DNA from: Simmondsia chinensis | Taxonomy: Eukaryota > Streptophyta > Magnoliopsida > Caryophyllales > Simmondsiaceae | NCBI GenBank assembly: GCA_018398585.1 | Contig: JAGTTD010000006.1 | Coordinates: 880,501-944,500 of the forward strand | DNA: 64,000 nucleotides | Direction: 5' to 3' | In this document: one piece after another, positions 484-63,838 of the stretch | How positions within the stretch are numbered: the first letter of the stretch is position 1 | How the letters are laid out: each line of letters opens with the position of its first letter | Translations under genes and position numbers: made by a program | The notes under the pieces: model-generated | What the model was told of the DNA's origin: nothing | The model's database searches: none | The model's input: the letters and a program-made list of their open reading frames with translations, nothing else

Positions 484-3400
484 ATGGAAGAAAGCTCTGC
501 AGCTCGACCGTCCGATTCAAATCCTAGGGTTTCAACCACTGCTTCGAAGTTTCTTACCGACCTTCCCTCTCGCGGCCTATTTTCCTCCACTGTTTCCTCT
601 TCCAATTTGGTGATCTCTTGCTCTATAATCATCTTTTGAAACCCTAACCTTTTCAGTTCTTGTCGATTAATTGAGTGGTTCATGCTGAATATCTATGTTT
701 GAAGTTTGGTTGTAATCTCCGTTTCTGGAAGTTTGATTTTCCGTTGAATTATCGTGCAATTTGTGTTACAGTCCAAAATATAGTAGTTAAGCGAAGGGTA
801 GTTTATGTATTAATAAATATATTAAGTCTTTTATTTCAATTATACCCTTCCCTTGACTCTATATACAGAGGCCCTGAGTGTAGAGGAGGGTATGGATGAT
901 GAATGTTGAGTCTCTCTTGCCCTCTCTCTCTGCGTCTCGGTCTGTCCTCCCCTCTTTATCTCCCCTTACCTTCCCTCTTACAATACAAAATTACTTTACT
1001 TGTAAATCTCTGTACCTTAGTACGAATTATACAAGTTATATACAAATATACTAATATTTTGAGTTGATTGCGTTGGTTGATTGTATTGGATCGATATGAT
1101 TTGTGTCAATTTATGCCTGTTTGCATTGACATGCCTGTATTCGTTTGACTTGAGTAAAGTTCTTTCATATGATCTAAAAAGGAAACTATACCGAAACTAG
1201 AGAAACCAATAAAATACTAAAAGCAAAGGGATAAGAGAGAAAACATAAAGGGTAACATTGATTTCATGGATAGTTTGTAATACAATTCATTCTGCCTATA
1301 CGTAGAATAACCCCCTATACTACCTATTAGGCTACCCGCATACTACAGACTCAAATACCTGTTTTGGGCATTTATCAATATTTTCCCCTTCGAGAGATCC
1401 TTGTCCGCAAGTGTGTAGGTATGGCATTCTATAGTTTCTAAAAAAGTAGACAATTGTTCGTTTATACTGATACAGGCAAAATTAAGTAACCCACATTGAT
1501 GGATGAGTTAATGAAGTTCCAATATATGTATATCCAAGGAGTTATTCCACCCATTGCCAATTTGTTGTGGGATCAAACCTCCTTTATTTTGTATCATCCT
1601 TGTCCTCAAGGGTCTAGGTATGGCATTCTATAGTTTCTAAAAAAGTAGAAAATTCTTCGTTTATGTTACCTTTTTATTAGGTAGTCTTTTATTTTTAGGG
1701 TTAGGGGTCATTCAAAAACAACCTGTATACGAGATAATACCTTGTAGGGGTAAAGTTGCGTACATCTTACCCTCCCAAGCCCTACCTTGGCCGGAGCTTT
1801 TTGAGGCATTGGGTTGTCGTCGTTGTTGTAGCGTGCAATTTGTGTAGGATGGTTATGCTGTGCTATTATGGGACAATTTTAGTCAATAGTTCAGTGGATT
1901 TCGAGTTATTTACCCCGTTGGTCCTTGATGTTTTTTCTTTTGTTCAAATTGGTTGTTCGTCTCTTCTTTTGTTCAAATTAGTCCCCCGTCTTTTCTTTTG
2001 TTCAAAAGATTTCCTGTTGTTATGTTCTAGGACAAAATTGGTCTCTCATCTTTATAATTTTTACCTAATTTTGATTACTGGATAGGGGACTAATTTTGCA
2101 TAAAATGAAATATTAGGAACTATTTTTAGCAAAAGAAAAGAAGGACTGATTTGAATAGAGTTATGAATATTAGGAGTCAGTTTGAAAAAAAAAGAAAAGA
2201 AAAGATCAGGGACCAATTTGAACAAACTTAAAAACAGTGAGGACTAACGGTGTGGTTAACTTGTGGATTTCTGGTTTAGATACTGATGAGTGGCGGTCTA
2301 CTTGGCTGCTTAATTGGTCTTTCATGCTGTGTCTTTCTTGGTTTGAAATTTAGTTATAGCCTGTGGGCTTTGATCGGCCAATTTGTATTGATTTTTGATA
2401 ACTGTATGCTCAAAAAGAGAGCAGTAAAAGGCAGACATTTTAGATGATATTTCTATTCCTTTCCAAAGGAATTGTATAGCCTCTAATTTTTCCACGGAAC
2501 TTTAAGTTGTTACTCCTGAAATAATATTAATCCCACTTCCCATAATAGGTGCTGCCAAAGTAATGGTTTATTTTTCCAACAATAGGATTATTATGCTTTG
2601 ACTAACTTATACTAGCCACTGTAGGAGACATTGTTTCTGTCCATTAAAGAGAAAGTTGAGTACATTATACTTACTGGCGCCGTAAAGTGTGCAAATGAGC
2701 TATTGAGATTGGTGTAGTAGGTAGGCTACCCTCCTTCAAGCATGAGATATTGGGTTCAATGCTCATTTACACTTCTCTTCGCGCGTTCGTGACCCTATTT
2801 AGTTTAATGTTGTGCCTTCTTATCATTATAAAAAATCTTGTTAAAATAAACCTTATGTTTCAAATCTAAGCTTCATATCACCAAGCAGTTAGGCATCTGT
2901 TTGGGCAGAGGGAGTATAGGTTTTTTTTTTTTTTTCGTTGTCTCCTCTAATCTTCCAAAGATAGCGTTTCACTTCTCTTTAGAAGCCATACAGGCCTGGC
3001 TTTACTAATTGCGTAGGAAATAATTGACATAATCCTTTAACTGTTTGATTCTTTCTATATGAGATGATGTCAATGTGGGTGGGGGAAGATCACTCTTGTA
3101 TGAAGTGTCACCTTTAGGGCATATTTAGGCCTAAACTCAAATGTTCGAAAAATCTAACAAAGATCTATTTTAGCGGTTAGCAAAAGCTTTGGACCTAAGT
3201 AGAGAATCAGTGCTTATATCTCGCCCGCTATTGCAGGGTGGGATGCGAGTTTATATTTGCGACCATGACACCTCCCCTCCAGGTATGCTTTTCAAATTCA
3301 AAACTATTAATCTTAAGGCCTATTTGGCCTAGCTTTTTTCTGGAAAAATGTGTGTGTGTGTGTTTTTTTTTTTGTTTTGTTTTTTTGGAAAGACAATATT

Positions 3401-6400
3401 TCAGATTTTTATGGCGTTTAGCTAGGAAAATAAGTGCTTTCAAATAAAGTAGAAACTGTTTTTTATGCTTTTAAGTAGAAGTTGGAAATACTTCCCTGTT
3501 ACACAAAATCAAAAGAAAAAAAAACTACAAAAACATTCAAACAAAAATACCCCTGTTGGCAACGGTTTTTACAAATGTGTTTATGCAAAAAGCGCTTTTA
3601 AAAAAAACATTTTTTCATAGTTGGGCGGAACAGACCTTTGGTTGGTTGTTTCAAAGCATTTATTTTCTTTAGGCATATTATCTCATGGATTCATCTATTT
3701 GTTTTGACTCTTAAACATGAACTTTACTAACTGTTCTTGTAAGTTTTCTCTTTTGAATCTACCGTTTGTTGGGTGATTTTCCTGCTTAATGTATAAAGTT
3801 TCTCTTGCTACCCTTTGTTTCAAATTTGTACTCTGTAATTGAATATTTACAAAAATGAAAAAGGAAATTATTATACGAGTTCTGAATCGTATGGTCCTTC
3901 CAATTTGTCTATGCAGAGAACCAAGTAATAAAGACGGATCAGATGAACATCTTAATTAGATCTCTCACTTTGAAGAAGCAAAAGGGTGAAGCGGCTGATG
4001 GGTCTAGGAAGAGGTATTCATCCTTGCTTTGAAGCAGGAAAAAGAACGATCAACTTGTATCTTTTGCATTTTTACATGTTTTAAACAAGAGTAACGAGTG
4101 CAATCACGTCGTATCGAATTTGAGCGTAGAATGCATGTGGCCAGAAATGATGGGATCTTAGAGAGACAATTTTCTAGATGTTTTCTGATTTCAAATGATA
4201 TTCAAGCATGTTTATTCGGTACCTGAATAAGTACTTGAACTTGAGTTGGGTACATAAAAGCATTTACCTTTAAACAATACAACTATTAGCATTTATAAGA
4301 CTCTTCTAGGGTAGCTGTTTTCCTTCTAACACTATTTTATTCTATCTTATATTTTATCCTTTTTTTTTTCCCTATACATATGATAGGCTAACAACTTTGA
4401 TATTTGGGTTGTCTAGTCTATATTTCTTCTATTAATTCTAACAACGATAGACTTGTCTACTGGCCCTTTTGGCGAATAACATAGCTCTCATTTCTATGTG
4501 CGTGCAATTGTATGATTAATGTATAAAGAAGCCCCACTTGTCTCCACAGTCCACAAGTCTTCTGAACTAAATTCAATATTTTTGTTCATGCAGAGCATCT
4601 GAAAGAGGTGTGGATGGAAGGGCTTCGGCAAAGAGACCCATGACTAATGGTCAAAATAGTTCTCAACAAGGTGAGCATACTTACGTAGTTGTCGTCTCTG
4701 TAATTAAAAACCCGTATAATACCAATATTAGACACATATTCGCATTTACTTGTTTAAAAAGGGTACAACAACAACAGTCCCAGTGTCCCAAGGGCTCCCG
4801 CATAAGCAGGGTCTGGGGGGTGGATATACGCAGCCTTCCCCCTCTAGGGTGCTACCGTGAAGGGAGGCTGTTTCCGGGGACCCCCAATCAGAGAAACGTG
4901 TCATCATGGGAGCACAGTAGCATGTAATTTAGGGTCTTTACATATAATATCCAATAATACGGTAAAACATGCTTTTTCTAGATGTTATCCATATAATACA
5001 AGTATTATAGCACATATCTATATTTTTCCCATTTAAAAAATAGATAATAATTGAAAATAATCAATATCAATACCTAAATTAAGTATCCATATATTTTGTA
5101 TTATGAAATTCGTCACTTTAACTCTCAAATTATGTACTTCAAATCCGTTATGGTAGGCACAGGAGATCTGTTGATACTATATTATTTACCATATGTCATG
5201 CTTCTGCTACCGCTAGTGTGACTAATGCTATCTTTTAATTTAATTTTATAAGTCAACAAACTTTTAAACAAAATTTTCATATATACGGCCAAGTAATACA
5301 CATACGTATTAGATTTTATTTAATCCCCATATTGTATTTTACTATGTCGTTTGTTATGAACATTTTTCTGGGTTGAGCTCATACTGGAATCTGTTGTAAT
5401 GCTCTTTTTTGTTTTATTAATGTAGAAATCGTGACAGAAAATACTACTTGCACTGCTACTTCTAGTACTTCCTTGATGACATGAAGGTTTTTTTTTTTTT
5501 TTGGGATTACAACTTCATGCATGTCTCTATTAAAAGCATTTTAATCTGATTATACTGACATCGTGTTTGAATAAAATTCTACATCTTAAGATGTTGCATT
5601 ATAGTCAAAGATATAAATCTTGTTGGATATTGATATTCATCACTCATAGCAGAGGTCAAGGCATGTAAAATGATTCAATATGTGTGGTGAGTAAATTTGA
5701 TGTCAACTGGACTAGGATATGACAGTTAAGACTCGAACCTATGACCAAATGTCAAAGTCGATTATTTTGTAAGATTTTTCTTTGTTTTTGCTCTACTTTG
5801 ATGTGTCTAATGCTCCACTTGTTTTTACGGAAAATGTTCTATGCCTTATTACTATTATTCTTTTTCGTATCTACATAACTAGGGATGGCTATGGGGCGGG
5901 TAAAACCCGTTACCCGCGGGTATCCACCCCATTTGGGCCGGGTACGGGTATAGATGAGGCGGGTAACGGGTACGGGTAGGGTACACATGTCAATATCCGT
6001 CACAGGTATGGGGCGGGTACGGGTATAGGCTTGTACCCCCCCGCCCCGCCCCGCCCCGCCTCCGCATGTACCCAGCCCGGCCCGCCCCGTACCCGCATAT
6101 ACCCGCCTTATAATCACATATTGGAGTTACTCGTTGTGTTATTTTATATAAAATATTACTTATGCAATTTATAATTATGAATTCATAGTTATTATTGAAG
6201 GGAAAAAAGAAAAGAATTTATGGCTAATAAGTTGGACATGGATAGGTAACAAGGCAGGTACGAAGCGGGTAAGGGCGGGTACAGGTGAGCAGGGGGCCGG
6301 CAGGGGCGGGTAATGGGTACCCGTTGGGTACCCGTGGGTAATGGGGTGGGTACGGGTATGGGTGGCGGGTACAGGTACCCACTTCATACCCGTGACGGGT

Positions 6401-8437: not shown

Positions 8438-9270
8438 AACGTCCATCTAATGCTATGTCGCCCTAGGTAAGTTCGTGTTCTTTTGGCAGGTAAGTGAGAT
8501 TGCCGATCTCCAAAAGAACCTTTTTGTACGTCTTGTCTTAGGGTCGACTTTACTAGTCTTTTAACACTAGACCAAGGCCTCATTGACGCTGAGAAGTATC
8601 TTTTGTCGTAATGTGACAAAAGTACCACTCCGAACTAATTGTTTGTACGGGCTTTTGTATGATAGTATATTATATTTTTGCCTTAATTTTTGGGATTGTT
8701 GAGTAACTTCTTGACGACCAATCCTGTAATATACTTCTTAAAATGGTCGTCTTATACTTCTCAGAAAATCGCATGTTATAGTCTCGTTTTTTCCGATTAA
8801 TCTCCTTTTGTCAATGTCGTTAGAATTTCGTTAAAAAGTTAGGTGCTATGCACCCGAGCATTAGGGATCAAATCTATAGTAAACAATAAAAGTTCAGTTA
8901 GATGAAAAATACACACAGATAACTGTAAATTGTAGATACATGATTTGAGCTGGAACTATGTCAATGAATAATCTTAACTTGAACTACTTTAATAAATGTT
9001 ACTGTAAGTTATTTTAGTCCATGTATTAAATGTTCTTAACGTTTTATAATTTAGGTACTCCACGTGTAAAGTTTGTGAAAGATTTGTTAACTATATTTGC
9101 CAAATATGGATAATCGTTATAATTTAAATAACAACAGGTGGTTTTCTGAAAAATATGAAAAGACCATAGTGGTTAAACGAATAATAATCACTTTAGTTAG
9201 GATTTTATGTAAATAATCATATAAATCTTGGTAAAGGTTGCTGGGATGACAATATGTTCTCGTAAAGTTG
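8438..9270. other. 3' flank of the SAP gene
   Basis: Contains the probable 3' UTR. A 10-bp perfect stem (GTTCTTTTGG at 8477-8486 with CCAAAAGAAC at 8510-8519) lies between and across two strong 5' splice consensus sites (8467 and 8490). The rest is AT-rich with no coding potential seen. Confidence 0.4.
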
Positions 9271-13464: not shown

Positions 13465-13952
13465 GAGATGTTATTTCAAATAAAAATAAGAAATTAAATA
13501 AAATATATTTATCAATATTGTAAACTATTTTTAAAAAAAATTAAGATTTCAAATATAATAGAGATAAAACTATTACAGGAGCAAATTTATTATTGTTAGA
13601 ATAAAATTCTTTTTCATAATAATTTTATAGCTATTATTTTTTGTAAATCACATTGCTACTCTAATAATAATTATAATAATAACAACATCCTTTAAAAAAC
13701 ATATATATATTTCAAATAAAAATAATCAACTAAATAAAATAAATTTATAAATATTATAACCTATTTTTTTAAAAGTTAAGATTCAAATTTAAATGAGATA
13801 ATATTATTATAGGGGCAAAGTTATCATAGCTAGAACAAAATTATTATTTCAGAATAATTTTATAGCTATCATTATTTATAAGTTATATTACTATTCTAAC
13901 AATAATTATATACGATATTAATAACATCATTTAAAAAACTTATATATATATA
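13465..13952. repeat. AT-rich tandem repeat, copies 1 and 2
   Basis: Two units of about 235-240 bases (13465-13710 and 13711-13952) share TTCAAATAAAAATAA, an AACCTATTTTT block, TTCAAATTTAAATGAGATAA, and ATTTTATAGCTATTA blocks. Copies 3 and 4 lie beyond a LINE insertion. Confidence 0.75.
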
Positions 13953-14645
13953 CAATAACAACAACAGACCCAGTGCCTCAAGGGCCCCTCATAAGCGGGG
14001 TCGGAGGGGTTGATGTATGCAGCCTTCCCCCTTTAGGGTGTTAAACCTGAAGAGAGGCTGTTTCCGAGGACCCCTAACCCGAGATTCATGCCATCATCGC
14101 ATCGTAGCAACCTGTGAGCAAAAGGGGGCAACAATGCATAAGAGCAGGACAAAGCATAAAGTAAGTATTACGAAGCACAACGCTCTAGAGGGGACTTTAA
14201 GGCAATATCATGCGCGACACGGCATGCAAATAAGCAAGTAAACAGATAGTAAACAGGACATGCACCCTTATATGAATTATACCTAGGAACATTAGTATAG
14301 CAGAATAAACAACGGTGTGAAACCGCTACATCCACTACTTCTATGATGGTCCTCCATCTAGCTCTATTTCTATCTATTTCTATCACATGCCATCTCCTCT
14401 GTGGGTTTAGATGGGTGGGTAAGTTCCTACTGTAACGCGTGCCTTCATCTCTTCTTTGGCCTGCTTCTTCCCCTCCTGCCTAGCATGGTACGGAGCTGAT
14501 TGCATCTCCTGACTGGGGCAGTGGTTTGTCTCCTCGTAATGTAACGTGCCCGAACCAGGACAACATTGTTCAGATGCTCCTATCCCGCTATATTGGATAC
14601 ACCTATTTTAGACCTCCACAAAGCTATATTTAGAGCCATCTCTTC
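13953..14645 (-). mobile_element. RTE-type LINE, 3' part including the end of the reverse-transcriptase ORF
   Basis: The minus strand runs from degenerate coding sequence (remnants of the WFGHV...RRP-type C-terminus and of the IDRNRARWRTIIEVVDVAV region near 14300-14386) through the 3' UTR to a TTG tail at 13955-13970. It interrupts the AT-rich tandem repeat. The ORF has stops and shifts. Confidence 0.75.
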
Positions 14646-15478: not shown

Positions 15479-33890
<18,412 letters not shown>

Positions 33891-42200: not shown

Positions 42201-45200
42201 AAGCAAAATGAAATTCTAAAAATTGAACTAAATTTACCCTCATTTTCTATCCCATTTGCTTCTAATTTTCCTCATTTCAAACACAAGAAACCATTTTCCA
42301 CCAAGTCTGATTTTTCTTTCTATGAAATTTTCCTGATTCCGAACACACCCTTAAAATTATACTCAGCTGACTTTTTGATTTATTGACCACAATATGATTA
42401 TGCTATCTTGTTTGTTCCCTATTTCACTGGCTAACCTATGAACTGATATGCCACAGATGCTTCTGTTTATGAAAATTATGCTGTTATATGATTGTAGTTG
42501 ACAAACGTATTATTCGTTTTCTGAGTTTCAGGTGATTCATGATATAAAGTATCTGGTTTCTGAGGTTTGTGGCAATTACCTCGAGCATGTGCTACAGCTT
42601 CTTGCTTCATGCCCCGCTGAAGTACTAGATCTTGTCAAAGAGAGTGTATTGCAGAGTGCAAAATCCTTGGAGAATATTGCACCGCTAGTGACGAAATCAA
42701 TTATAGGATCTCTAGTGGAGAAGTCTGTTGAGGTCAGTGGGATGTTTGGTCATTTAAAACTTACTGCATGTTTGATATAATGTTAAAAATATGGGGTTAG
42801 TCATTCCTCACATTAATGTAATAATAATAGAATTGTTCATTTTGGTTTAGTAGTTAGGTTTACCTATCCCCAAGTATGAGGTATTGAGTTTGAAGCTTAT
42901 CTCTCCCTCCTTCAAATGGTTGTTTCCCCACTGAGGGCAATATTTTCCTTGCCTTTGTGAAAGGAAAAAACAAAACGCAGTAACTGATACCCTCACAAAC
43001 TTACTTAGGTTTTGCAGATAGTAAAGTTTTCCGATCTTTTCAATTCTGGGTAGTGCAACACCTTTAACCTATATTGGGCATAAATTTTTTTCGCGGTGAA
43101 GTTTAAGGTTAAATTAGACAAGGGTAAAAGGTAGTTAATCATTACTTTTGGAGCCGTTAACCCCCTTTACTTTGAAACCAAACATACCCTTAATTTACGA
43201 GATTTGATAGCTGGTGGATGAAGTTACCACTCAATCTAAGTTAAGTGCCCAGGTGTTCTTGGTGGATGGAACCGATGGTACTAATGCCTTTCGTTCCCTG
43301 AACTCCAATTAGCGTGTGTGCCTGTATTCTTTGCTTTCCTTACGATTTGCTGACTAGAATTCTTGTATTCAGGACTTGAGACAGCTGAAGGGGATAACTG
43401 CCACATACAGGATGACTAATAAACCTCTACCTGTTAGGCATTCTCTTTATGTTTCTGGGGTTTTACGTCCTCTAAAGGTATGTATTCCTAGAGTTTTTTC
43501 ATTTAGGTCCCATTTAGTATCGTTTTCTCTATGCATCTTTTTGTTTTAGGGGAACTAGAATCCAAGTTTTGAAAATGGCTTCTTTCTGGTTTTTGGTTTT
43601 CAGCTTTTAACTTTCTTTGAAATTATGAGAAAATTAACAGCAAGATATCCAAAACCGAAAAAAAAAAAAAACAAAAAAGCCCAATTTTTAAAGAAAAACA
43701 AAAAGTTCAAATGAAAACCGATACCAAATAGGATTTGCTCCCTGTTTCTGTTTACATGTCCTACACATTTTTGTGTTATTTAAGTGAGGTTTTGGAGATT
43801 CCATCCTTGGATCTCTTGTCCTGGGCCTTAAATCTTGTTAGCCTTTGGCCTTTGGGACAAGGCATCATCAGTATATGTTCTATAATTGTCTTGACTTGTG
43901 CTAGTGAACTGGGTGGTAAAACGAGGATACGGATGAGGTTAGGGGACTGGAGATGTGCATGGAGCACTCAGTTTTATGAAATAATGAGCACGTCGCTATT
44001 GATTCAAATATTTGCATTGGTTATACATCCATGAATTAACATAATGTCCACAGGCTTTCTTGGAGGGAGACAGGGCAATGACATATCTAGATAGTGCAAC
44101 AAAAGAAGAACTTCTACGCGGTGCTGCGTTTGAAATTACTAGCCGGTATTATGAACTGGCCTCAGATCTTGTCAGTGTGGTAAGTATTTGTATTGATGTG
44201 CTATCCACAAATGTCCTTTCCAGATACCTGTAAGATAATAATAAACCGAAGTTTTTGCTTGTGCTTCCTAGGCTAGAAAAACAGAATCGTCTCTTCAGAA
44301 AATACGTCAAGGCGCTCAAAGGCGAGCTGGAGCGAGCTCAGATTTGTCAGACCACAATGTGTCTGATACCGATAAAATTTGCATGCAATTATTCCTTGAT
44401 ATACAGGTGCATATAAAATTACTGATTTTACTATTACTTGCATCTCTTTCATTGAATCAAATAAATCCATTACACAAGGTTATGCTGTTAATGTAGTAGA
44501 TTTTGAGCTAGCCGTTCTACATGTGGCCTTTATATAACTATGCTTTTATAATGACCATAATGTTGTCTAGTTACTAAACATGTTTATAAATGTAGTATTT
44601 GTGGACTATTAGAAGAGTAAAATATGGATTATTACGTAGCTATTCATTCAAATTTTCACAAACAACAACAACAGTCTCAGTGCCACAAGAGCTCCCACAT
44701 AAATAAGGTTTGAGTGGGTAAATGTATGTAGCTTTCCCCCTTTAGGGTGCTATCTTGAAGGGAGGTTGTTTTCGAGGACTCCTAACCTAAGGATCAAATT
44801 TTCACAAACATAGAGCTTAACATCTACTTGTTGCTTGCTTGCTTGCTTGCTTTTAAAAACCCAATCAGACCACCACAACCTACTACGTAACGTCTTTGTG
44901 ATCCTGCTGCCATGACACTACTGTTGTATATGAGTTGAGCCAAGCCCAAGCTCTAGGCTCAACTTATCTACATTTAATTTGACTCGGGCTCAGCTCAAAG
45001 CTTGTTGAGCTTTGAAACTTCAAACTTGAGCTCGAGTCTTGATAGGCTAAAAACGTCTGCATTTAAAACTTGATCAAAGCTCATTTAGGCTCAAACTTGG
45101 CTCTAAGCTAATAAATTGTATTAAAATAGGCTTGCTTAGGCTCAAGAGCCTATGAGCTCGTCTGAGCCTCGAGAACTTGCAATCTGGCTCAGCACAACAC

Positions 45201-47491: not shown

Positions 47492-49801
47492 TCATACCCA
47501 CCAAGTAATCGGACCCAAACCATCACAGTCGAGCGATCCCTGACACAAGTTCAATAACATCGGCAAAATTGTATTAATGCCAACGCCATAGCCAGAGTAA
47601 CACCATACCAAAAAACTAGCTCAAGTGGATAGAACTTACAGAAATAACCATAGGAGCAAAGGGTTTTGAGCCTTCCTCCTGTTCAAGGGGAATTGGAGGG
47701 TAAGTAACATCGACAACACGAACCCGGATCTCGTCTTCATCATAAATGTAAAAATCTTGATCACCGTACTTCCAAACCCATCTCACTTGGTTCTTGTTGT
47801 CAGGATCGGGCTCTGCTCGTGAAGGCTGTGGCATTAAGTAGGCTGGTACATATATGTCGTCAAAAGATCCGACAGACAAACGCAATCCATTCAAGTTTGA
47901 TTCTTTAAGTTTTGCAGAAATGGTTTCTCCCACAAATGGACGGAACATGATCATTCTAAACACGACCTGCAATAAAAGACTCGAGGAAGAATGGAACCCC
48001 ATTTTTTCAATCGGTAAAAGAAATATTATTAAGAAAGAACGTACAAAGAGCTAAAAATAAAATGTTCTAAAAAACACAACCACAACATAAAAAAGAAAAC
48101 TAAGAACTAATAACATAAAACCCTTTAATCCCTTTGCAGGTAAGCTAACACTAGGTCGATGAAAAACTCAACGTTCAGCAGCAAATGGGAAAAGACCCTA
48201 AAATCAAAAAAGACCCACTTCAAAGTTGAGATTCAGCCTTATGTCGCTTCGATTGTATTGAAAGTAATAAAAACCCACTTCAAAGTTAAAAATGGTTGCT
48301 AATATACACAATTCAGGCTACAGCAGCACAACAAGAAAAAAACTGAGATGGCTACTCAAGGGATAATGACTTAAGGATTGGTAATTCAGTCCATATAGCC
48401 TCCACTCCCTTCCTTGATTTCTACATTATCGCTTCACCTCCCCTCCTTTAAACCTTCACTTATAAAATATTTAATTTATAATAAGATTAACTCTCTTATC
48501 TTAATTTAACTGTACATTAGTCATGTCATTACATAGGTGAACTCTATTTTTTATTTATGTTAATAATATAATCTATCAAGGGAGTTGTTATTTACATGAA
48601 AAAAATTATTATTGTCAAAGCAATGATGGGACTTACTAACAATAAGAGCCACAAAATTGCCTCGAAAACTACGATCTTGCTCTAGCAATAACAATTTTGC
48701 ACTAGCAATAACACTATCCTTTATAAACTATAACATATAAATAAATATGAAAACTCTAGTTTTCACATAAATCCAACATTAGGTTGTATGGCAAAGGCAA
48801 TGGATGAATGCTAATCACATTTCCTCTCTCCCTAAACCTCTTTTTCTCTTCTCCCTCAATTTCTACTTTCTTTGCCCCCAATTTTCCTGGTTTTGTCTAT
48901 CAAATTCATCGAGTGACATATCTTCCTAACAATGAAAACCACCAACGGAGATGAGAAAACACAATAAAATTTCAATTTAAGGGCTTCAAGTAGAACACAA
49001 CAAATGATATCAAGAAAATCAATGAAAAAAAATAGGAGATTCAAAAGCAAACGAATTATCTACTCCGTTCATCCCTAATATTTGTAAATTTATTCAAATT
49101 AGTCCTTATCTTTTCTTTTATTCAAAATAGTTCCTAATATTGTTATTCAAATTGGTCCCCCACCCTTTTTCTTGTTCAAAATAATTTTTAATGTTTTATT
49201 TTATGACAATATGGTTCCTCATCTTCTATATTTTTACCTAATTCAATCACTAGATAAGCGATCAATTTTGTTCAAAAAGAACATTAGGGTCCATTTTGAA
49301 CAAAAGAAAAGACAAATGAAACTTTGAACAAACCTACAAACATTAAGGCCTATTTTGAACCAAAAAAAAGATGAAGGACCAATTTGAACGAACATACAAA
49401 CATTAGGGACTGTTTTGAACAAAAGAAAAGATGAAGAACCAATTTGAACGAACCTAAGAAACTATTTTGAACAAAGAAAAAGAGACAACTTTAAACAAAC
49501 ATACAAACTAACTCGATAATAAACAGACCTTGTATGTGGGAGCTCCTTCACTAGGCAACACGAATCCACCCTCAATCGACTGAATATCGTAAACCGATAC
49601 ACAAAGCCCTAATTTCGGAATTACCTTCACATAAAAACAAAAATTAGGGTTCATAGAAAGCAAATTAAAGCGAAATAAAAGCGGAATTACCTTGTCGAGG
49701 AAGATAGATTCGAGCTGGCCTCTAATGGCGTCATCGAGAGGAAGATCGAGCAGGCTGGGAGGTAACCGCAATTTGTGTTCTAATTGGCCTAATACGAACA
49801 T
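47492..49801 (-). CDS. RPC8: DNA-directed RNA polymerase III subunit RPC8 (Rpc25, Rpb7-like)
   Basis: Four exons on the minus strand: 49801-49691, 49624-49529, 47966-47640, 47539-47492; 193 residues. Rpc25 forms the Pol III stalk with Rpc17 and acts in initiation at tRNA and 5S genes in the nucleus. Residues 1-80 are the Rpb7-like N-terminal fold (MFVLGQLEHKLRLPPSLLD at the start). The remainder is the OB-fold RNA-binding domain (FDDIYVPAYLMPQPSRAEPD, then the YPPIPLEQEEG region). The last 48-nt exon encodes GSLDCDGLGPITWWV, the conserved Pol III-specific tail. Intron 1 is 66 nt, in frame and free of stops. An in-frame upstream ATG at 49987 would add 62 residues; the 49801 start is preferred because MFVL is the family N-terminus. 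Confidence 0.93.
49065..49500. repeat. Inverted-repeat/minisatellite element in RPC8 intron 2
   Basis: The right half has four or five diverged units containing GAACAAAAGAAAAGATGAA and GGACCAATTTGAACGAAC; the left half carries the complements. Related to 1890-2260. Confidence 0.55.
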
Positions 49802-49864
49802 TTTTTGCCCTGATTTTTTACCTTGCCGGAGAAATTCTTCAAGGAAGAGAAAGAGGAATGTGCT

Positions 49865-49885
49865 GGCGGCGGCGGCGGCGGCGGC
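49865..49885 (-). repeat. GGC/GCC trinucleotide repeat in the RPC8 leader
   Basis: About seven GGC units on the plus strand upstream of the RPC8 start, followed by a GA-rich tract at 49903-49942. On the minus strand this reads as GCC and CT repeats in the presumed 5' UTR. Confidence 0.8.
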
Positions 49886-49987
49886 AGTTGGTACCTGGAG
49901 AGAGAAAGCAGAGAGAGAGAGAGCGAGAGAGAGAAGGAGAGGGGAGGGTTTTGGAGGGAAAGAGTTTTGAGGGGAGGAAATTATCAT

Positions 49988-50404: not shown

Positions 50405-50540
50405 ATAAAAGGTTGGAAAACCTCGAAAACAGTCTCTCGTCAGGGTCTTACCATGATGGGGTAAAACTGCGTACATCATTCCCCTCCCAGACCCTACACG
50501 ACCGAGAGCCCTTCGGGCACTGAATTTGTTGTTGTTTTTG
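50405..50540 (+). mobile_element. RTE-type LINE 3'-end fragment
   Basis: Has the AACTGCGTACATC and CCCAGACCCTAC blocks, GAGAGCCCTTCGGGCACTG, and a TTGTTGTTG tail at 50526-50540. 5'-truncated; no clear target duplication. Confidence 0.75.
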
Positions 50541-50725
50541 TTCTCTAGCATTCATTCAGAAAAGAAATATTCCCATAATCAAGTCATAATTCATGAGGAT
50601 ATTTTCCAGTCTCAATTCCTAATGCATCATCATCTCTGTAAGTTCTCAGTACTCGACCATAGTTGACTTTCAATAGAACGTAATTCATTAACATTCACAG
50701 TAATAGTACCTAAGTAATAAATATA

Positions 50726-50978
50726 CAACAACAACAACAAACCCAGTGCCTCAAAGACTTCCGCATAAGCAGGATCTGGAAGCGGTGGATGTACATAGCC
50801 TTACTCCTTCAGGATATAACCCTACCGAGAGGCTATTTCCGAGGACCCCTAATCTTATATGATTGGCAACGCAAAGACTTCCCAGGAGGTCACCCATCGT
50901 AATACTACTCTCGCCCAAGCACGCTTAACTTCAGAGTTCTAATGAGATCCAGTTACATTAGTGCCTGATAAATGAACC
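50726..50978 (-). mobile_element. 5S rRNA-derived SINE (SINE3-type) with RTE tail and target duplication
   Basis: On the minus strand the 5' part (about 50970-50863) is a nearly full-length 5S rRNA-like sequence, including the internal promoter: box A/IE with AAGTTAAGCGTGCTTGGG (50914-50931) and box C with GATGGGTGACCTCCTGGGA (50880-50898). It runs directly into the RTE 3' UTR (about 50860-50742) and a TTG tail (50726-50741). Flanks CTAAGTAATAAATATA (50710-50725) and TTAAGTGATAAATATA (50979-50994) match at 14 of 16. This is the architecture of a 5S-derived SINE: Pol III head plus LINE tail for mobilisation. It is not a functional 5S gene, since the first bases are diverged and no T-run terminator follows the 5S part. 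Confidence 0.88.
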
Positions 50979-50994
50979 TTAAGTGATAAATATA

Positions 50995-51399: not shown

Positions 51400-63838
<12,439 letters not shown>

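Follow-up and report, generated by a model that had tools for sequence, protein, structure and literature searches.

BovB is a LINE of the RTE clade, and the vertebrate SINE3 elements, or DeuSINEs, possess a long central domain. A SINE with a 5S rRNA head and a BovB tail, Ped-1, has been described from the springhare (PMC3747384), and 5S-related SINEs are also reported in a fungus (PMC5063351). As for plants, the head of the tobacco TS SINE is tRNA-derived (PMC3747384), and a paper on rice describes plant SINEs as typically tRNA-headed (PMC7852121). A 2024 paper on the plant retroelement Cassandra cites animal SINEs to illustrate how a 5S promoter can be captured (PMC10853983), and the 5S of the Cassandra LTR is thought to have been gained from a SINE3 inserted into an LTR (cited in PMC10886601). 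We found no 5S-headed plant SINE in the open-access literature searched, which was covered mostly as titles and the starts of abstracts. AnnoSINE, an annotation tool for plants, includes 5S among its classes of SINE head (PMC8825457), so such elements may already have been annotated automatically in some genome.

The element studied here, a member of a family that we call F1, lies in a 64-kb window (the whole stretch of DNA analysed), for which an earlier note had proposed a 5S-like head joined to an RTE LINE tail. Correcting that note, we place the element on the minus strand; its parts are collected in Table 1. An Rfam scan matched the head to the whole of RF00001 (model positions 1-120) at 50981-50861 on the minus strand (53.3 bits, E = 2.6e-8), and the 5S likeness is thereby confirmed. 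This was the sole gathering-level Rfam hit in the window, relaxed cut-offs adding only weak microRNA and lncRNA matches. The internal Pol III boxes, described before as near-intact, are so with one reservation: no base is altered in the 27-base core, which we take to hold the A box and intermediate element, and the C box of the window copy, ACGATGGGTG, is one change away from AGGATGGGTG. The head is derived from 5S rRNA with its A box, intermediate element and C box, as in SINE3-type elements. At the 3' end we see the TTG repeats that had been reported, and the flanks hold a target duplication (TATATTTATCACTTA / TATATTTATTACTTA), previously given as 14/16 matching bases and measured here as 14/15. 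The head is unique within the window, whereas eleven more tails, all diverged and without a head, occur there.

Table 1. Features of the 5S-headed element and of related RTE LINE sequence (positions are those of the window)
Feature	Position	Strand	Remarks
Whole 5S-headed, RTE-tailed SINE, family F1	50726..50979	-	254 bp; 87.9% to F1 consensus; bounded by target duplication
5S rRNA-derived head	50861..50979	-	Rfam RF00001; starts at 5S +1 position
Intact 27-base 5S core (A box and intermediate element region)	50903..50929	-	Exact match in genome pattern search
RTE-type 3' tail ending in (TTG)n	50726..50855	-	Matches 11/11 RTE LINE loci and eleven other window tails
Target site duplication, 5' copy in element sense	50980..50994	-	14/15 bases match other copy
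Target site duplication, 3' copy in element sense	50711..50725	-	14/15 bases match other copy
5'-truncated partner-type RTE LINE 3' end	13944..14480	-	Tail 13954-14079 at 89% to SINE tail consensus; used as LINE-family query
RTE LINE fragment of the earlier note	23390..24435	+	More distant tail lineage, 72%; ORF 23709-24131 without Pfam hit

The surroundings of the element offer several observations of their own. Another RTE-type tail lies about 170 bases from the SINE in the opposite orientation (50411-50541, plus strand). Tail-only insertions at 44661-44788 and 57352-57446 have apparent target duplications of ~15 and ~18 bases, as judged by eye, a pattern expected of 5'-truncated LINE or SINE copies. 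Exons of RPC8/Rpc25, a subunit of RNA polymerase III, were recognized by Pfam at 47616-49987 (minus strand), less than 1 kb downstream of the SINE and on the same strand, which is probably a coincidence. A tRNA-headed, TS-type identity was considered and rejected, as the head is 5S and ARAGORN found no tRNA in the window (decayed ones can escape it). Plasmid sequences gave no match to the element, and contigs of viral and prokaryote genomes held no exact 21-mer of it; plant DNA is not expected in either collection.

Fusion of the head to an RTE tail stood up to analysis. The tail had also been equated with that of the LINE at 23390-24435, which turned out to be only a 72% relative. Closest to the F1 consensus among the window tails is instead that of the truncated LINE end at 13954-14079 (minus strand, 89%), and the tail at 4765-4887 (minus strand) reaches 86%. 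Used as a genome query, the 13944-14480 piece scored at least 40 places, the window's own included, and the F1 tail consensus matches all 11 of the other RTE LINE loci compared, which were the best-ranked ones, at 83.8-93.1%. At one LINE locus (L128) an RVT_1 domain (E = 1.7e-23) lies ~1.2 kb upstream of an F1-like tail; the other three translated LINE pieces (from L128, L129 and L137) gave no Pfam hit, making one positive piece in four. Plant RTE LINEs terminate in (TTG)n or (TTGATG)n (PMC3747384), and the assignment to the RTE clade follows from the TTG tail and the gene layout rather than from a tree. F1 and an RTE-type LINE in this genome share their 3' tail, and the partner is a closer RTE lineage than the LINE at 23390-24435.

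We searched the window's own assembly, which comprises 831,394,711 bases in 35 contigs. The window element retrieved itself and at least 39 near-full-length places on many contigs, at 85-87% identity, together with one additional short match. The F1 consensus, built from the window copy and 39 others, is 253 bases long, runs from GGGTTCATTTACC to the TTG tail and carries both the 5S core and the C box; median identity to it is 93.6%, the window copy (87.9%) being the most diverged of the 40. When the head alone served as query, all 20 further places retrieved extended beyond the junction, two of them ending inside the tail. As the first F1 copies had been picked by similarity, the junction itself was counted genome-wide: GTTGCCAACCCTATAAGGTTGG, with at most two mismatches, occurs at 6,289 sites (3,267 + 3,022), compared with a single site for the reversed pattern, a ratio that excludes a chance origin of the junction. 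The window copy has four mismatches in the junction and falls outside this count, so the true number is larger.

Contig C1 has 53 places with the exact junction, and the ends of the copies were assessed in the first 40. Thirty of these 40 align from within the first 8 consensus bases, 39 extend to position 235 or beyond, and 29 satisfy both end criteria; the remaining 10 at the 5' side start later than position 8, being either 5'-truncated or too diverged to align. Identity to the consensus in this sample had a median of 90.2% and a range of 78.0-94.8%; F1 copies are therefore fairly diverged, and present activity is doubtful. Across 99 aligned copies, linked sites at consensus positions 23, 27 and 215 (Fisher 5e-7, 3e-4) define at least three subfamilies. 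Some individual copies are unusual in structure. In one (L015, C10:19788119-19788287), a full F1 copy is immediately preceded by part of a second 5S head, giving a head-to-tail partial dimer, and another (L151) has a second 5S-core stretch inside its tail, as from a reverse transcriptase jumping back to 5S. The head-tail junction of the consensus (positions 114-131, CCAACCCTATAAGGTTGG) forms an inverted repeat whose 6-base arms could fold into a hairpin.

To score target duplications, the 5' flank of each copy was compared with its own 3' flank, and flanks swapped between copies served as the control. Among the similarity-selected copies, 29/40 scored above the 99th percentile of swapped flanks, with a median duplication length of 17 and a range of 11-24 bases, as did 14/20 in a second set. 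The C1 sample was run with a higher threshold, at which only 17/40 copies pass (14/29 among those of full length). A permutation was confined to full-length copies, namely 55 of the 59 chosen by similarity (four dropped) and 29 of the 40 from C1 (11 dropped). Matched means were 12.5 and 11.1, respectively, against largest permuted means of 6.2 and 6.7, and 42/55 and 18/29 copies exceeded the 99th percentile. Most full-length copies therefore bear their own target duplications, well above the swapped-flank control. An empty-site comparison was tried at one locus (L017, inside an RTE copy) and was not clean, with ~40 bases missing and a weak duplication at the locus itself. The window element is, in sum, a member of a SINE family with dispersed copies, common ends and independent duplications, and the family sought by the earlier note, with the same 5S-to-tail junction in variable flanks, exists in the genome.

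F1 is not alone. The exact 27-base 5S core occurs at 3,389 genome sites, true 5S genes included (reversed control, 0). We sampled the first 20 on C1 besides the window copy, at 0.13-2.07 Mb, regardless of their tails: 19 run into an RTE-like tail, and the twentieth (L152) is cut short before the tail and adjoins a tailed copy. Judged by eye and by alignment to the SINE consensus, none of the 20 resembles Cassandra or a bare 5S gene. Five belong to F1, twelve to a family F2 (L145, L146, L148-L150, L152, L154, L159-L162 and L164) and three to a family F3 (L153, L155 and L157). Both F2 and F3 start with AAGAGGG, differ in their junctions and end in TGTTCC or ATGTT without TTG repeats, ends that a simple shared-tail account leaves unexplained. 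The F2 junction, with at most two mismatches, was counted at 9,007 genome sites (control, 0). Duplications scored above every swapped pair in 6 of 11 F2 copies (L152, a tandem duplicate, was left out) and in all three F3 copies, the control here being very small. The genome thus holds at least three related families of 5S-headed, RTE-tailed elements. The earlier suggestion of a poorly described or new SINE family is upheld as to the family; its newness applies within the open-access literature searched.

The junctions of the three families differ in a way that bears on their ancestry. In F3 the 5S 3' end is complete (GTGTTGCACCCCT) and leads into CAGGTT and a G-rich stretch; the LINE has TCTCAGGTTGGGG at the corresponding place. 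Compared with F3, F2 is shorter by eight bases at this point and F1 has changed bases. We therefore tentatively regard F3 as nearest to the founder state, its consensus coming from three copies.

We also compared the head with the 5S genes of the host, which lie in arrays on contig C8 near 4.69 and 6.40 Mb (4.686-4.702 and 6.397-6.415 Mb) with units mostly of ~420-440 bases. The F1 head spans 5S from +1 to near its 3' end. Its consensus core is identical to the host gene at 94/98 aligned bases, with one gap, and the whole head at 110/117 bases. F1 has the C box AGGATGGGTG and its partner CTCCTGG, whereas every host 5S variant listed (the four commonest and three outlying genes, from overlapping array loci) has AAGATGGGTG and CTCTTGG. 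AGGATGGGTG is given as the canonical plant C box (PMC10853983), and the simplest reading, in our view, is that F1 may have retained the 5S of an earlier stage in its own lineage. Both C8 arrays depart from the canonical C box, with the matching CTCTTGG change. A predicted fold of the SINE head retains the pairing of GGGTT with AACCC, as in 5S helix I; this pairing amounts to one event. Elsewhere in the assembly, many plastid matK fragments, most with stops, were seen in contigs C8, C4, C13, C35 and others (L141-L144). Among named sequences, a COG2 exon came closest to Camellia and Nyssa (~70%), RPC8 to Beta, Bienertia, Ancistrocladus and Spinacia (60-65%) and a matK fragment mostly to cacti (~74%), a pattern that points toward Caryophyllales.

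Taken together, these results are best explained by a non-autonomous retrotransposon, a 5S rRNA-derived, SINE3-type SINE that would be mobilized through its RTE tail and would have arisen by template switching; we assign this explanation as a whole a probability of about 93%. Under it, the internal 5S promoter, with its A box, intermediate element and C box, would direct Pol III to initiate at the element's first base. Four consecutive Ts occur nowhere in the F1 consensus, so Pol III would be expected to read through the tail into the flank. The LINE reverse transcriptase would take up the SINE RNA by its LINE-like tail and insert it by target-primed reverse transcription, and target-primed insertion would leave duplications of 11-24 bases, the signature observed. 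An RTE enzyme is the presumed mobilizer because the tail is common to SINE and LINE. In the founding event, a reverse transcriptase copying RTE RNA would have switched to 5S rRNA at its 3' end and read it through to the 5' end. Such a template switch is the most likely origin, because F3 joins the complete 5S 3' end to the LINE CAGGTT; the CT at the F3 junction could come from either template.

Other explanations were weighed against the same data. A single chimeric retropseudogene, in which one template switch joined RTE RNA to 5S rRNA and which inserted a single time without later amplification, would fit a head that is unique in the window, and template switching can produce such chimeras. 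Copy number refutes it, since 6,289 junctions with common ends, subfamilies and separate duplications are found in place of the lone copy that the earlier note had named as grounds for rejection, and we give it practically no chance. The copies could, alternatively, have spread by segmental or tandem duplication, and a few loci were indeed copied with their flanks: L104 and L105 have a common target duplication and look like one duplicated locus, and L152 is part of a tandem locus duplication. For most copies this process is refuted, as their own two flanks match each other far better than they match the flanks of other copies; moreover, among the ten C1 copies that start past position 8, three have an above-threshold duplication. 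As the general mode of spread it is very improbable.

It is also conceivable that the 5S sequence belongs to a fragment of a Cassandra LTR that adjoins an unrelated RTE fragment, since the LTRs of Cassandra contain 5S throughout land plants (PMC10886601, PMC10853983). The near-universal entry of sampled C1 cores into an RTE-like tail (19/20, the remaining one being a truncated SINE copy) speaks against this, and the lone 5S pseudogene that the earlier note had named beside Cassandra as a possible refutation is likewise not seen in the sample. Furthermore, the 5S forms the 5' end of a 253-base element instead of sitting mid-LTR, and the duplications are 11-24 bases long. The sample covers the first 2.1 Mb of one contig, and Cassandra may exist elsewhere in the genome; as a source of the element described here, we hold it to be highly unlikely. 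A different question is whether 5S genes of some other species supplied the head, or it arrived by way of an intermediate element, instead of deriving from the 5S rRNA of its own lineage. The AGGATGGGTG and CTCCTGG of F1, which differ from every listed host variant (AAGATGGGTG, CTCTTGG), would favor such a foreign source. However, 94 of 98 core bases are the same as in host 5S, and a C box described as canonical in plants (PMC10853983) is also compatible with an older state of the same lineage, so a foreign head seems unlikely.

Beyond the single locus, we lean toward the view that one template switch in a eudicot lineage founded a 5S-SINE superfamily, of at least three families and more than 15,000 counted junctions, the first in plants, and that plants thus have or had the kind of mobile 5S promoter module from which the Cassandra 5S has been proposed to derive. 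The families provide a plant candidate for that gain of 5S by Cassandra; no direct link between F1-F3 and Cassandra was drawn here. The high copy number of such a family in a plant suggests that large SINE expansions can be sustained by the 5S (type 1) Pol III promoter there as well, and the family offers a captured 5S promoter for comparison with the present 5S genes of the host, whose C box differs. On the practical side, 5S annotation of this genome must tell thousands of SINE heads from real genes.

The type of element is known from animals, and it is the plant host, the copy number and the presence of several families that are notable. Ped-1 resembles F1 in joining a 5S head to the tail of an RTE-clade LINE and differs in its mammalian host and BovB tail, a likeness drawn from its description. 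HaSE3 of the moth Helicoverpa armigera likewise has a 5S head, an RTE LINE 3' tail and a proposed template-switch origin (PMC3272025). It is, however, an insect element whose body and tail are common to the tRNA-derived SINE HaSE1 (PMC3272025), whereas in F1-F3 the head passes into the LINE tail without a separate body. The vertebrate SINE3 elements, or DeuSINEs, have a 5S-derived Pol III promoter head as F1 does (PMC3747384, PMC10886601), with tails from CR1 or RSg-1 LINEs instead (PMC3747384). Among plant elements, Cassandra TRIMs also use a 5S promoter (PMC10853983, PMC10886601); unlike F1, Cassandra is an LTR element, mobilized by LTR retrotransposons. Cassandra is recognized by 5S within LTRs and by a primer-binding site and a polypurine tract flanked by the two LTRs, and the cores sampled here are instead RTE-tailed or belong to a truncated SINE. 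The tobacco TS SINE provides a plant counterpart to the F1 tail: its 3' ~100 bases are nearly those of potato RTE-1_STu, and both end in TTG (PMC3747384). The head of TS is tRNA, and that of F1 is 5S.
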